Below, piece by piece: positions 2,850 through 7,030 of a stretch of 37,386 nt of DNA (within the stretch, counting starts at the first letter, position 1; the number at the start of each line of letters is the position of its first letter). The notes under the pieces are model-generated. The model was not told the origin of the DNA. It was given only the letters and a program-made list of their open reading frames with translations, and did not search any database. Source of the DNA: a virus. The stretch covers positions 1 through 37,386 of IMG/VR virus record IMGVR_UViG_3300025889_000360; one strand, 5' to 3'. The position numbers were made by a program, and so were the translations under genes.

Positions 2850-3137
2850 ATGAACACTTACAGCGATAGTGAAGGCAAAAGATATACTACTCCACAAATT
2901 GAGCAAAAAATTAAAAAATCTGCTTTAGAAGTTTTAGATATGCAATTTTTGGAATTTGGATATAACTTTTGCCAAAGCTGTGAGCGTAATGATTGTAAGC
3001 CAATAGACGTATCCCATACTATAAGCCGTAAGAAAGCGAAAGAAGATGGTTGCGTTGAGGTTTTGTGGAATTATGATAATCTTGAAATACTAGGTAGGAA
3101 ATGTCATAAAATTAAAGATAAACTAAACTTATTTTAA
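2850..3137 (+). CDS. HNH-like zinc nuclease (putative)
   Basis: A 95-residue protein with CQSCERNDCK at about residues 41-50, then DVSHTISRKKAKEDG and a C-terminal NLEILGRKCHKIKDKL. The CxxC...C, the Asp-Val-Ser-His and the later Asn...Cys-His fit a compact HNH (beta-beta-alpha-metal) fold, comparable to small phage recombination nucleases such as NinG-type proteins. It overlaps the RusA-like gene by one base, so resolving or trimming DNA branches is plausible. The exact family is not certain. Confidence 0.6.
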   Translation: MNTYSDSEGKRYTTPQIEQKIKKSALEVLDMQFLEFGYNFCQSCERNDCKPIDVSHTISRKKAKEDGCVEVLWNYDNLEILGRKCHKIKDKLNLF

Positions 3138-3460
3138 TGCTAATAAACATAAAGCCTTTATCTGTTAATCAAGCGTGGCAAGGGCGTAGATTTAAAACGC
3201 CAAAATATAAATCTTATGAGAAGGAGCTAATATTAAAACTTCCAAATATTAAAATAGATAATAATGCGCGTTTAAAAGTAGATATAATATTCGGGTATAG
3301 CAATAGAGCTTCCGATATAGATAATCCTTTAAAACCCCTCCTAGACTGCTTACAAAAGAAATACAATATAAACGACAATATGATTTACGAATTGACGGTA
3401 AAAAAAGAAATTGTTAAAAAGTCAAAAGAATTCATTAACTTTGAAATAACCGAAGTATAA
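3137..3460 (+). CDS. rusA: RusA-like Holliday junction resolvase
   Basis: A 107-residue protein of normal RusA length. It opens with the typical IKPLSVNQAW strand-turn, and carries the acidic active-site motif SDIDNPLKPLLDCL with D60, D62, K66 and D70, followed by IND at residues 78-80. RusA enzymes cut four-way junctions to process branched replication intermediates before packaging. It follows an HNH-like gene and an OB-fold protein, forming a small recombination module. Confidence 0.9.
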   Translation: MLINIKPLSVNQAWQGRRFKTPKYKSYEKELILKLPNIKIDNNARLKVDIIFGYSNRASDIDNPLKPLLDCLQKKYNINDNMIYELTVKKEIVKKSKEFINFEITEV

Positions 3461-3472
3461 AATAAAAACAAA

Positions 3473-4009
3473 ATGAAAACATTAACCTCACTTTTATTAT
3501 TAATATCCTTAAATTTATTTGCTCAATCTTCCGTAGGTATTGCAGTGTATCAAGATGCGCGGCTATCCTTTGGAGATGCTAAACACGGTAACAATGGATT
3601 TACTACAGACCTTACGGCAAAATTAAAATTACAAGGCTATGAAAAGGCTTTAGGTCATACGGTGTACGCTGTTAAGTTCAGATATACTGACTTGGCTTAT
3701 TTCGATACGTACGACCCGACAGGCTTTTTATATCGTTACGGTATGGAATTTCAATACGCCTTTAATTTAGGGACTAATAGATTTCATTTCGCGCCCTTAG
3801 TTGGCTATGGAATTATGAGAAGGCAAAATACTTATGCTTATCGTAGTTGGGAGTTCGGAGGCGAAATTACTTTCCGAATTACAGATTGGCTTAAACTAAA
3901 TGCAGAGGGTGTTTATATGCAAAGACCAGACCTTCCAAAAGTAGGATTCAGATTTAACGGGTCTATTGGATTACAATTTGATATTAACACTAATTATTTA
4001 AATAGATAA
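3473..4009 (+). CDS. Secreted outer-membrane beta-barrel-like protein
   Basis: A 178-residue protein with a clear signal peptide (MKTLTSLLLLISLNLFAQ, cleavage likely around FA-QS). The rest alternates polar and aromatic residues in repeated strands (YAVKFRYTDLAYF, YRYGMEFQYAF, WEFGGEITFRITDWLKL), consistent with about eight barrel strands. Such a protein would sit in the host outer membrane, an odd cargo amid DNA-metabolism genes. I recall similar proteins in other flavobacterial phages. Superinfection exclusion or receptor masking is a reasonable guess; nothing here proves it. Confidence 0.7.
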   Translation: MKTLTSLLLLISLNLFAQSSVGIAVYQDARLSFGDAKHGNNGFTTDLTAKLKLQGYEKALGHTVYAVKFRYTDLAYFDTYDPTGFLYRYGMEFQYAFNLGTNRFHFAPLVGYGIMRRQNTYAYRSWEFGGEITFRITDWLKLNAEGVYMQRPDLPKVGFRFNGSIGLQFDINTNYLNR

Positions 4010-4011
4010 AT

Positions 4012-5133
4012 ATGATAAAAGTAAGACTAAAACCATTGGAAGCAACTGCGTTAGGATTGACAGTTAAATCAAAGTTTAAAGATGGAAACCCGAGATATAA
4101 TTTAGACGAAAATCAAATAGAACAACTAGATACACTTAGAAATAAAGGAGTGATAGATTCCTGTGAAGGCTTGGAAGTTGACCCTACAACGGTAAAGCAT
4201 TTATGGAAGAAAACAAAGCAAGAGAGCCTATTCGTTAAAAATCCTTTGTATGTAGAGCCTGAAATTAAAAAGGCAATAGATGAGCTACAAACCCTTCACG
4301 AACTTTCAATAAAAGAGCAGAAGGAATATGCTTTTAAATATCCTAAATTCAAGAGAGAAAAAACAACAGACCCTCATTGTTTATTGTTCGACCCCGCTGA
4401 TATTCACATTGGTAAGATTTGTAGTAGCTTTGAGACTGGCGAAACTTACAACAGTCAAATAGCAGTTCAAAGAGTTTTAGAAGGAATGAGGGGTGTTATA
4501 AATAAAACGAAAGGGTATTCATTCGATAAGGTTATATTGGTAGCTGGAAACGACATACTTCACGTTGATAACGCTAAATCTTCAACAACTAGTTTAACTC
4601 ATCAGGATACCGATCAGATGTGGTACGACAATTTTATGATGGCTAAGAGATTATTAGTAGAGGTTATAGAAACTTTGCTAACTATTGCGGATGTGGAGGT
4701 AGTTTACAACCCTAGCAACCACGATTTCACACACGGTTTTATGCTTTTAGATTCTATAAGTAGTTGGTTTCATAATTGCAAACAAGTAACCTTTGATAAC
4801 GATATGAGACATCGAAAATACACAATTTACGGAAACAATCTAATAGGAACGACTCATATGGATGGTGCTAAGGTAGATAAGCTCCATGGTTTAATGGCTG
4901 AGGAAGCTAGCGAATACTGGCACAAATGTAAAAATAGATATTTCTTTGGACACCATATACACCATAAGACCTCCAGGGATATATTCAGTGTGTGTATAGA
5001 GACTTTAAGGAGTCCGAGTGGTACTGATGGCTGGCATCATCGACAAGGCTTTCAGTATTCACCTAAAGCGATTGAAGCATTTATTTTTAATAAAAAGCAA
5101 GGACAAGTAGCTAGAATAACTAATATATTTTGA
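4012..5133 (+). CDS. Calcineurin-like metallophosphoesterase
   Basis: A 373-residue protein. After an N-terminal region of about 120 residues come the metallophosphoesterase motifs in order: DIH at 130-132, GNDILH at 179-184, SNHD at 235-238 and GHHIHH at 313-318. These supply the two-metal site of the Mre11/SbcD-like phosphodiesterase superfamily. A phage nuclease or phosphatase acting on DNA or RNA ends is likely. It starts two bases after the barrel gene. Its C terminus, QGQVARITNIF, is nearly repeated at the end of the next gene, which marks an insertion junction. Confidence 0.85.
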   Translation: MIKVRLKPLEATALGLTVKSKFKDGNPRYNLDENQIEQLDTLRNKGVIDSCEGLEVDPTTVKHLWKKTKQESLFVKNPLYVEPEIKKAIDELQTLHELSIKEQKEYAFKYPKFKREKTTDPHCLLFDPADIHIGKICSSFETGETYNSQIAVQRVLEGMRGVINKTKGYSFDKVILVAGNDILHVDNAKSSTTSLTHQDTDQMWYDNFMMAKRLLVEVIETLLTIADVEVVYNPSNHDFTHGFMLLDSISSWFHNCKQVTFDNDMRHRKYTIYGNNLIGTTHMDGAKVDKLHGLMAEEASEYWHKCKNRYFFGHHIHHKTSRDIFSVCIETLRSPSGTDGWHHRQGFQYSPKAIEAFIFNKKQGQVARITNIF

Positions 5134-5162
5134 TGCCGTTTGATGCCTTTTTTGTATATTTG
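5129..5162 (+). promoter_or_regulatory. Promoter for the endonuclease VII-like gene
   Basis: TTTG at 5129-5132 (inside the stop of the upstream gene) is followed 22 nt later by TATATTTG at 5155-5162, an exact match to TAnnTTTG. Transcription would start around 5167-5169, essentially on the ATG at 5167, giving a leaderless message. The 9-mer TTTGATGCC also occurs twice, at 5129 and 5139. Confidence 0.7.
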
Positions 5163-5166
5163 TAAT

Positions 5167-5610
5167 ATGAAAAAATGTAATATTTGTAAAGAAATAAAGC
5201 CTTATAGTGATTTTGTAAAAAGAAGCAACAGAGCTTCTGGAAGGCAACCTTATTGTAAATCATGTCATAATAAAAAAATGAGGGACAAATATTCATCTAA
5301 CGTAATGAAGGATTATGATTTAATGAGAAATTATAATATAACTTTAGATGACTATGAGGTTTTATTTAAAAAACAAAATGGATGTTGTGCTATCTGTGAT
5401 ACACATATTAGCGAAATAAATAAAAAACATAAAAAACACTTATGTGTAGATCATTGTCACGACACGGGTATTATTAGAGGTTTACTTTGTGATAGTTGCA
5501 ATAGAGGAATTGGATTGTTAAAAGACAATGTTTCGATACTTGAAAACGCTTTAAAATATTTAAAAAACAAAACACAGGGGCAAGTTTCAAGAATAACACA
5601 TATTTTTTAA
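5167..5610 (+). CDS. Endonuclease VII-like HNH nuclease, probably a mobile insert
   Basis: A 147-residue protein with zinc-binding cysteines C4/C7 and C30/C33, then C74/C77, and the hallmark VDHCHDTGIIRGLLCDSCN at about 94-112 seen in phage T4 endonuclease VII and related recombination or homing endonucleases. An in-frame ATG at 5140 exists, but homologues begin at the MKKCNICKE segment and the promoter predicts a start at 5167. After the natural end of the family (ALKYLKNK) comes QGQVSRITHIF, a near copy of the C terminus of the upstream metallophosphoesterase. The gene thus looks inserted near that gene's 3' end, taking over the old tail. Confidence 0.85.
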   Translation: MKKCNICKEIKPYSDFVKRSNRASGRQPYCKSCHNKKMRDKYSSNVMKDYDLMRNYNITLDDYEVLFKKQNGCCAICDTHISEINKKHKKHLCVDHCHDTGIIRGLLCDSCNRGIGLLKDNVSILENALKYLKNKTQGQVSRITHIF

Positions 5611-5612
5611 TT

Positions 5613-6239
5613 ATGATAAATATAACAAACGAGGATAATATGCTTTTAATGGCAAGGTATGAAGACAATCACTTTGACCTTGCTATTGTTGACCCACCTT
5701 ACGGAATATTAAACAAAACAAAAAGAGGTAAAAGTAATTATGTTGATGGTAAGAAGTACGAAGATTGGGATATTAAACCAAAAGACGAATACTTTAACGA
5801 ATTGATAAGGGTTAGTAAAAATCAAATCATTTGGGGTGGAAATTACTTTGGCTATCTATGGACTATATTAAAATATAATCAAGGGTTTATTATTTGGGAT
5901 AAAACACCAACAATGCCTACGTACTCGGATACTGAAATGGCTTGGAGTAGTTTTGAAATGCCAAATAAATTATTTAAGATGCACATAAATAGTGATAAAG
6001 ATAGACGTATTAACAAAATACATCCTACACAAAAGCCTGTTAAATTATACGAGTGGTTATTGATGAATTACGCAAAGGAAGGAGATAAGATACTAGACAC
6101 TCATCTTGGGAGTGGCTCAATAGCGATAGCGTGCTACAATTTAGGCTATGATTTAACAGCGTGTGAATTAGATACTGAATATTATGACAGCGCCTTAAAA
6201 CGCCTTAAACAGCATCAAGCACAATTAACAATTTTTTAA
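5613..6239 (+). CDS. DNA adenine/cytosine-N4 methyltransferase
   Basis: A 208-residue beta-class amino-methyltransferase. The catalytic DPPYG lies at 27-31, HPTQKP at 137-142, and the S-adenosylmethionine-binding DTHLGSGSIAIAC at 162-174. The order, catalytic motif before the FxGxG-type motif, defines the beta group. There is no cognate restriction enzyme beside it, so it probably protects phage DNA from host restriction. It starts two bases after the endonuclease gene; before that insertion it would have followed the metallophosphoesterase directly. Confidence 0.9.
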   Translation: MINITNEDNMLLMARYEDNHFDLAIVDPPYGILNKTKRGKSNYVDGKKYEDWDIKPKDEYFNELIRVSKNQIIWGGNYFGYLWTILKYNQGFIIWDKTPTMPTYSDTEMAWSSFEMPNKLFKMHINSDKDRRINKIHPTQKPVKLYEWLLMNYAKEGDKILDTHLGSGSIAIACYNLGYDLTACELDTEYYDSALKRLKQHQAQLTIF

Positions 6240-6246
6240 AAATAAA

Positions 6247-6278
6247 TTTGTTTATATCAAATTAAATAACTACTTTTA
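6247..6278 (+). promoter_or_regulatory. Promoter for the structured RNA and replication genes
   Basis: TTTG at 6247-6250 is followed after 20 nt by TACTTTTA at 6271-6278, which matches TAnnTTTG at seven of eight positions. Predicted transcription start near 6284 falls on the first base pairs of a hairpin (6283-6310). Confidence 0.6.
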
Positions 6279-6282
6279 CACT

Positions 6283-6380
6283 TAGTTACCCTCTCACAGT
6301 ATAGTAACTACGGAACATTAAAAAACCCGACAATGAAAGTAGAAGTGAGAGGCTACTGGATTTGTTGGGTTTTACTTTTT
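6283..6380 (+). ncRNA. Candidate kissing-loop RNA or attenuator
   Basis: Hairpin 1 pairs 6283-6289 with 6304-6310 (7 bp perfect). Its 14-nt loop starts CCUCUCAC (6290-6297). Hairpin 2 has an outer 12-bp stem (6322-6333 with 6362-6373, one G-U pair) and an inner 5-bp stem (6338-6342 with 6353-6357), capped by a loop holding GUGAGAGG (6345-6352). The two loops are perfectly complementary over 8 nt. Hairpin 2 is followed by ACTTTTT, so it can also act as an intrinsic terminator. With the promoter just upstream, this could be a stable RNA of about 100 nt or a leader that controls the replication gene at 6395. I match it to no known RNA class. Confidence 0.55.
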
Positions 6381-6394
6381 AATAATTTTAAGAT

Positions 6395-7030
6395 ATGATA
6401 AAACTCACTAGAAGAAAAGGATTTAATTTTTTTAGATCATATTATGATGTTTATAATGAGCTGAATGATAAGGAGAAAGTTGAGTTTATGGATGCGTTAT
6501 TAGATCGTCAGTTTTTAGGTGTTAAGCCTACTGAATTAACAGGCATGGCAAAGTTTGCGTACATAAGTCAAACCAACAGTATTGATAGTCAAGTAAAGGG
6601 TTATGAAGATAAAACAAAAACCAAACTATCTACCCCTTGCCTAGGGGGTGAGGTAGGGGGGGTGAACACCCCTAGCCAACAAGAGGAAGAGGAAGAGGAA
6701 GAGGAAGAGAAAGGGAAAGGACAATACGTCTATACAAAAAAAGATTTTTTAAAAGATTGGAATATTTTAAGAACTAAACATCTAAATAAACCCAGCTTTT
6801 CAAACCGTTTGACCTTTGATGACTCTAAAAACTTAGACAGCATAAAAAAAGATTATACGAGTGAGCAGATCAGAGAAGCATTAATAGGCTTATTTAAACA
6901 AAAGCATTTACCTAACGGATTAACGGTTATGCAAAGCAACCCTAAACACTTCCTAGAGAAGTTTGAAAGCTATTTCACAGCGTATCACGATAAAAACGAT
7001 TCGTTGTATGGGAAAAAAGAAATAGCATAA
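6395..7030 (+). CDS. Replication initiator / helicase-loader-like protein
   Basis: A 211-residue protein. The N-terminal part (to about residue 75: FFRSYYDVYNELNDKEK...FMDALLDRQF) resembles the DUF6291-type domain of Bacteroidota phage replication proteins. A low-complexity linker with nine glutamates follows, and then a C-terminal helical domain (FLKDWNILRTKH...NPKHFLEKFE, about 115-200) like replisome organiser or DnaD-type proteins. It begins the replication block, downstream of a structured RNA. The linker DNA has GC-rich inverted repeats and GAGGAA repeats, unusual in this genome and reminiscent of an origin inside an initiator gene. Confidence 0.65.
   Translation: MIKLTRRKGFNFFRSYYDVYNELNDKEKVEFMDALLDRQFLGVKPTELTGMAKFAYISQTNSIDSQVKGYEDKTKTKLSTPCLGGEVGGVNTPSQQEEEEEEEEEKGKGQYVYTKKDFLKDWNILRTKHLNKPSFSNRLTFDDSKNLDSIKKDYTSEQIREALIGLFKQKHLPNGLTVMQSNPKHFLEKFESYFTAYHDKNDSLYGKKEIA
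6631..6712 (+). repeat. GC-rich inverted repeats and GAGGAA microsatellite; possible origin
   Basis: ACCCC at 6632-6636 pairs with GGGGT at 6645-6649. GGGGTG at 6659-6664 pairs with CACCCC at 6667-6672, and the latter arm can also pair with CTAGGGGGTG at 6641-6650. Next come four exact GAGGAA units (6683-6706) and a degenerate fifth. Unit gain or loss changes protein length by two residues in frame. The position inside a replication gene is similar to lambda, whose origin lies in gene O. Origin function is inference. Confidence 0.4.

Follow-up and report, generated by a model that had tools for sequence, protein, structure and literature searches.

Why do a metallophosphoesterase gene and the endonuclease gene that follows it end with almost the same peptide? 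This question is raised by one locus of the window, i.e. the whole stretch of 37,386 nucleotides that was analysed (IMG/VR virus record IMGVR_UViG_3300025889_000360). The phosphoesterase (4012-5133, plus strand) ends with IFNKKQGQVARITNIF and the next gene (5167-5610, plus strand) with LKNKTQGQVSRITHIF, each directly before the stop codon. Nine of the last 11 residues are identical and many of the codons differ synonymously; the initial annotation, which first pointed to this shared tail, had read both peptides correctly. It proposed that an Endonuclease VII-like (Endo VII) gene had entered near the 3′ end of the phosphoesterase gene, capturing the old tail and restoring a new one. Of the coordinates that it gave to this gene, the end of the ORF holds, but the start at 5095 falls inside the replacement tail of the phosphoesterase, and the first codon of the endonuclease is at 5167. 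The usual picture of free-standing homing endonucleases places them between genes, and where a coding sequence is interrupted, introns, inteins or split genes are the common explanation.

An occupied and an empty allele

A relative of the phosphoesterase is found on 43 viral contigs; the closest of them, L001, carries a phosphoesterase with 97% protein identity to that of the window and no endonuclease behind it. The gene ends with AACAAAACACAGGGGCAAGTTTCAAGAATAACTCATATTTTTTAA and leads straight into the same methyltransferase, which begins 3 nt after the phosphoesterase stop. Such an uninterrupted allele, with the phosphoesterase directly before the methyltransferase, had been envisaged in the initial annotation, and its tail DNA is indeed that of the window endonuclease. 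Because the L001 3′ end, AACAAAACACAGGGGCAAGTTTCAAGAATAACTCATATTTTTTAATTATGATAAATATAACAAA, matches the window from 5566 on, differing at one of the first ~64 nt, we conclude that the endonuclease wears the original tail of the phosphoesterase. Comparison with L001 shows that the captured tail has kept the sequence that originally followed it.

The outgroups indicate which of the two tails is the older one. The phosphoesterase of L002 has the TQGQVSRITHIF form and that of L018 ends with QVSRITHIF, and neither contig has an Endo VII gene at the phosphoesterase 3′ end. Since both share the VSRITHIF form, the TQGQVSRITHIF form is ancestral and the QGQVARITNIF ending of the window phosphoesterase is the newcomer. 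Thus, the L001 allele and the L002 outgroup form support the proposed insertion near the phosphoesterase 3′ end, with the old tail captured and a new one restored. Nearly all other phosphoesterase relatives are devoid of the insert. The occurrence of occupied and empty alleles in near relatives marks the endonuclease as an optional gene, as is also the case for the L050, L350 and L306 types described below.

The recoded and the old tails are identical at 11 of 14 positions (stop included), with codons changed in six of these 11. The tail pattern GQ[VI]..xxTHxF is kept in nearly all phosphoesterase relatives. In AlphaFold2 models, phosphoesterase residues 364-372 form the final beta-strand (block pLDDT 85-93), and the captured tail on the endonuclease is a low-confidence coil with no secondary structure (block pLDDT ~60). 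These models fit a tail that would be needed by the phosphoesterase and merely carried by the nuclease. An exact DNA scan of the viral contigs for further copies of the tail returned none.

We also counted the divergence between the window and L001 in 75-nt bins. The 85 differing sites over 3994-5131 are unevenly distributed: identity is ~95% at 3994-4968 (~53 mismatches in 975 nt) and ~80% at 4969-5131 (~32 mismatches in 163 nt, mostly synonymous). This rise toward the insert is the trace expected from coconversion with a somewhat diverged donor, to which ordinary mosaicism could partly contribute; the middle of the methyltransferase gene is also mosaic relative to L001. In the L050 case, divergence is found in the tail only. 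L001 is the only close empty allele for the window's own site, and the sister loci have 4 to 11 each.

Features of the phosphoesterase-methyltransferase region of the window
Feature	Position	Strand	Remarks
Metallophosphoesterase / DNA repair exonuclease-like protein, host gene	4012..5133	+	373 aa; phrog_704 DNA repair exonuclease, E 8e-65
Coconversion-like tract, phosphoesterase 3′ end	4969..5091	+	Identity drop relative to L001
Recoded replacement tail of the phosphoesterase, KKQGQVARITNIF and stop	5092..5133	+	31/42 nt identical to the old tail
Short leader of the inserted element, with TATATTTG motif (TAnnTTTG, Bacteroidetes -7-like) at 5155-5162	5134..5166	+	TGATGCC...TTGTATATTTGTAAYATGAAAAAATGTA arrangement also in L017
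Endonuclease VII-like (DHHRN-type) putative free-standing homing endonuclease	5167..5610	+	147 aa; DHCH...R...CDSCN; PF02945, phrog_2633
Captured original phosphoesterase tail, NKTQGQVSRITHIF and stop, now endonuclease C-terminus	5566..5610	+	Equals L001 5078-5122 with one mismatch; collinear into methyltransferase start
DNA methyltransferase, directly 3′ of the phosphoesterase in the empty allele	5613..6239	+	PF01555

The endonuclease is a separate ORF placed after a stop codon (ATG at 5167, stop at 5608-5610) and is carried by neither an intron nor an intein; no Rfam match, and no self-splicing RNA, was found in 3900-6400. A role of the TATATTTG motif as promoter of the inserted element is only a suggestion, as the window shows no enrichment of this motif by itself. 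Predictions of sigma-70 promoters or terminators near the insert did not exceed those in shuffled sequences. For the window phosphoesterase, we found no Pfam match and, by sequence, no solved structure. The methyltransferase ends with QLTIF in the window (5613-6239) and with QLTLF in L018 (6451-7095), both resembling sliding-clamp binding motifs. Upstream, the window also harbours an HNH-like ORF at 2850-3137 (phrog_144, E 8e-6), followed directly by a RusA-like resolvase gene at 3137-3460.

The endonuclease and its lineage

The endonuclease matches Pfam PF02945 (E 8.7e-22, residues 53-134 of 147) and phrog_2633 (E 1.9e-40). It has the catalytic D-H-x-H, R and N residues and the two zinc-binding CxxC pairs of the DHHRN group, with little or no variation across the alignments; in an alignment of 23 members, C74/C77, D95, H96, H98, R104, C108/C111 and N112 are invariant. 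The Pfam and PHROG profiles stop at residue 134-136 of 147, which bears out the claim of the initial annotation that the family ends before the tail. The last 11-13 residues are thus an addition beyond the family profile. Profile searches gave matches to the structures of T4 Endo VII and Hpy99I, the former covering the catalytic stretch only (profile 61-130 versus chain 9-86). We rejected an assignment as a T4-type Holliday junction resolvase (gp49), for which an N-terminal domain and a full-length match are expected, whereas here the motif is C-terminal and the match is confined to the catalytic stretch. A search of bacterial genomes for close relatives yielded only one match, at 37%.

The nearest relatives of the endonuclease, also its nearest rows in the tree, are those of L017 (68%), L046 (50%), L047 (48%) and L243. 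In the maximum-likelihood tree, the window and L017 enzymes pair with strong support and those of L046, L047 and L243 form a supported set. Each of the four follows a phosphoesterase gene with an intact tail at a distance of 11-46 nt, and no captured tail is present on any of the four endonucleases. L017 and the window moreover have in common the TGATGCC...TTGTATATTTGTAAYATGAAAAAATGTA leader between phosphoesterase and endonuclease. Since these relatives already occupy the place behind the phosphoesterase and have captured no tail, the lineage lives at this site and capture came later in its history. The window represents this subsequent step, in which the join on the right-hand side came to lie within the recipient's tail codons, and tail capture is no obligatory part of the lineage.

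A NUMOD4-HNH gene (5187-5660) and a GIY-YIG/NUMOD3 gene (2161-2820) are found directly behind the phosphoesterase in L018 and L237, respectively. The phosphoesterase 3′ end is an insertion hotspot for several nuclease families. In L032, a 270-aa ORF with an ABC-transporter membrane domain (4969-5781) separates the phosphoesterase from the gene that usually adjoins it; the ends overlap. The endY gene of phage Tls, which overlaps a phosphoesterase match, was discarded as a further case: it sits upstream of the gene and not at its 3′ end.

Tail capture in three other host genes

In a blind, end-anchored scan, each of 138 distinct Endo VII ORFs was compared with its upstream neighbour. Four matches reached a score of at least 20, namely the window (50), L350 (31), L050 (27) and L306 (21), for 0.17 expected; at a score of at least 30, the expected number is 0.07, and the match in the window lies far above chance level. 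With four captures in 138 genes (~3%), tail capture is a minority route among the sampled Endo VII genes. The tail of the window endonuclease is absent from all the scanned Endo VII ORFs located away from phosphoesterases, where its recurrence would, according to the initial annotation, have refuted the insertion. Old tails out of frame or behind the endonuclease stop were not detected above chance. The Endo VII genes of T7-like Klebsiella, Yersinia and Escherichia phages and of cyanophages S-CBS2 and 7B11-B, also considered as candidates, lie between genes and have no captured tail. In the Synechococcus phage 7B11-B contig (L216:1871-3864), three Endo VII genes and one HNH gene are interleaved, within 2 kb, with small genes including that of the terminase small subunit.

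Each of the three new matches was confirmed against empty alleles. The first one concerns a gene located just before a capsid-region gene, occupied in L050 (identical to L130) and others. The empty contigs (L132, L133, L135-L142 and L150) end with GAATACGACTGGTCAGAATAAACAAGAGAG, encoding EYDWSE and the stop; in the occupied contigs the gene ends with GAATATGATTGGAGTGAGTGATGG, which encodes the same EYDWSE and stop, and the endonuclease ends with GACTGGTCAGAATAAACAAGAGAG. Occupied L130 and empty L132 are 99.2% identical over 3839 nt upstream. In the second case, a lectin-type tail gene occupied in L350 and L388, the empty contigs L381-L387 end with FAENPFKNANAR, and the occupied ones have the gene ending with FAESPFKNSLAR and the endonuclease with NPPFKNANAR, in each instance before the stop. 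The third one is a crAss-like portal gene, occupied in L306 (identical to L390): the empty alleles (L395, L396, L398 and L402) end with KGRNKKSK, and in the occupied allele the portal ends with KGRKSNKK and the endonuclease with KGRNKKSK, again before the stop. L400 shares this recoded portal end, and behind it lies the start of a related endonuclease.

The endonucleases of the window, L050, L350 and L306 do not group together in the tree, and the four captures therefore look independent. Over the recoded tail and the endonuclease, L350 and L388 are 90-100% identical, versus ~50-60% just upstream and 40-84% downstream. Similarly, L390 and L400 are 94-100% identical over this block, with flanks at ~64-90%. 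In both pairs the block is more alike than its flanks; the recoded tail therefore travels with the nuclease. Behind the L050-type capsid-adjacent gene, a second Endo VII lineage is found in L197 (2414-2797) and L192 (3803-4201); there, the right-hand join falls at the stop codon or ribosome-binding site, so that no tail is captured.

Proposed mechanism and relation to known systems

Based on these sequence comparisons, we consider it very likely that the gene encodes a free-standing Endo VII (DHHRN) putative homing endonuclease that exchanges the 3′ end of the host gene. The endonuclease gene would have entered the phosphoesterase gene within its last codons, and a replacement 3′ end of ~13 codons, probably extended to ~165 nt by coconversion, would have arrived with it. 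Specifying almost the same protein ending with different codons, this replacement would keep the phosphoesterase whole. The original 3′ end would have been left on the far side, where it is in frame with the endonuclease and supplies its last 14 residues. When a cell is infected by both types of phage, the enzyme would cut the tail codons of the empty allele, and double-strand-break repair from the occupied genome would copy in the recoded tail together with the endonuclease. The recoded tail would make the new allele no longer a target, a form of immunity through recoding, and the two tail copies may be too different to recombine, in which case the gene would not be expelled.

Ordinary phage mosaicism is an unlikely alternative, in which a non-homing Endo VII gene, e.g. 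that of a junction resolvase, would have been joined by illegitimate recombination to a breakpoint in the phosphoesterase tail, without any targeted cutting. The adjoining methyltransferase, itself mosaic relative to L001, would agree with it, as would the 3′ joins, which share short stretches only, and the RusA resolvase encoded nearby. Against mosaicism speak the recurrence of this architecture in four host genes that are unrelated and whose endonucleases are distant relatives, the movement of tail and endonuclease as a block between phages, and the repeated presence of this endonuclease lineage at the phosphoesterase 3′ end. The position of the Endo VII motif toward the C-terminus (53-134 of 147) is moreover like that of F-CphI and unlike that of the T4 resolvase (PMC6083498). 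The direction of the event could also be reversed, with an ancestral occupied state and L001 arising by a precise deletion that returned the old tail to the phosphoesterase. This we regard as highly improbable: although a single close empty allele is known for the site, the outgroups L002 and L018 keep the VSRITHIF form and have no Endo VII gene there, nearly all other relatives are without the insert, and identity to L001 falls specifically toward the insertion.

The two proteins might finally have kept, independently of each other, a C-terminal peptide binding a common partner such as the sliding clamp, an idea suggested by the similar hydrophobic endings of neighbouring genes (ITNIF, ITHIF, LTIF). 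As the origin of the tail similarity, such a tag is refuted by the match at the DNA level, since the endonuclease tail is that of the L001 phosphoesterase, including the intergenic bases and the start of the methyltransferase. No other Endo VII gene of the scan has such a tail, and in the model the phosphoesterase tail is a structural strand; overall, we give a shared tag hardly any weight.

Returning to the swap of the host gene 3′ end by a homing endonuclease, we are inclined to see in it a general way for free-standing homing endonucleases of phages to enter coding sequences of essential genes with no need for splicing. The unit that moves would consist of the recoded host tail plus the endonuclease, recoding would block both self-cutting and recombinational loss, and the old tail would be a passive nuclease C-terminus. 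If this is true, conserved 3′-end codons can serve as homing sites. A phage nuclease that lands inside conserved genes and keeps them whole via a recoded ending would resemble a natural "home and rescue" gene drive. The four host genes, each with occupied and empty alleles and one with a near-isogenic pair, are material for testing target choice, recoding immunity and retention. They also carry a warning for annotation: in such nucleases, and in the genes that precede them, the ends are not what they seem.

Several known systems share parts of this arrangement, and we found no report of tail replacement in phages among the open-access papers searched. The free-standing Seg and Mob endonucleases of T4 and the ICP1 nuclease genes located at exchange boundaries are also found between conserved genes, with coconversion of the flanks; they adjoin intact genes, and term searches of PMC2988022 and PMC10448857 brought up no tail replacement or capture. 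MobE, inserted in nrdA of an Aeromonas phage as a case of genes-in-pieces (cited in PMC2988022), is likewise a homing endonuclease gene of a phage that interrupts a coding sequence, the function of the host gene being kept without splicing. There, the host protein is made in two pieces, whereas here it is one chain with a duplicated and recoded end. The ShiLan element, a homing HNH gene in phage methylase genes, also sits in a coding sequence without intron or intein, but its translation continues in the reading frame of the host gene and yields an internal loop (PMC11855218), whereas here the host gene terminates before the insert. MobE in nrdA and ShiLan are the nearest phage precedents for insertion into a coding sequence.

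On the side of the enzyme, F-CphI of cyanophage S-PM2, the founder of the homing endonucleases with an Endo VII motif (DHHRN), also has this motif toward its C-terminus and is encoded by a free-standing gene beside the targeted gene (PMC6083498). It shows that proteins of the Endo VII type can act in homing. Self-cutting by F-CphI is prevented by a group I intron in psbA, in what is called collaborative homing (PMC6083498), whereas here, where no intron RNA was found, protection would come from the recoded codons.

The closest likeness in architecture is with the mobile endonuclease ORFs of fungal mitochondria, by which the C-terminus of a gene is replaced, described in Allomyces atp6, Glomus atp6, atp9, cox2 and nad3, Rhizopus atp9 and Mortierella cox2 (PMC3630166). 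There too, the endonuclease ORF lies near the 3′ end of the gene, a foreign and mostly synonymous copy upstream restores the host protein, and the native copy downstream matches the empty allele of a close relative (PMC3630166). The window and the three sister loci all have this duplicated end, with the foreign synonymous copy upstream and the native one downstream. The window element thus works like the fungal C-terminus-replacing ORFs, and is not filed among them because it belongs to a virus record and not to fungal mitochondrial DNA. The fungal ORFs are mitochondrial (e.g. the LAGLIDADG ORF in Glomus atp6) and their duplicated stretches span ~50-280 nt (PMC3630166), whereas here the elements reside in tailed phages, the enzymes are of the Endo VII type, the tails are 8-14 codons long and the native tail has become the in-frame C-terminus of the endonuclease.
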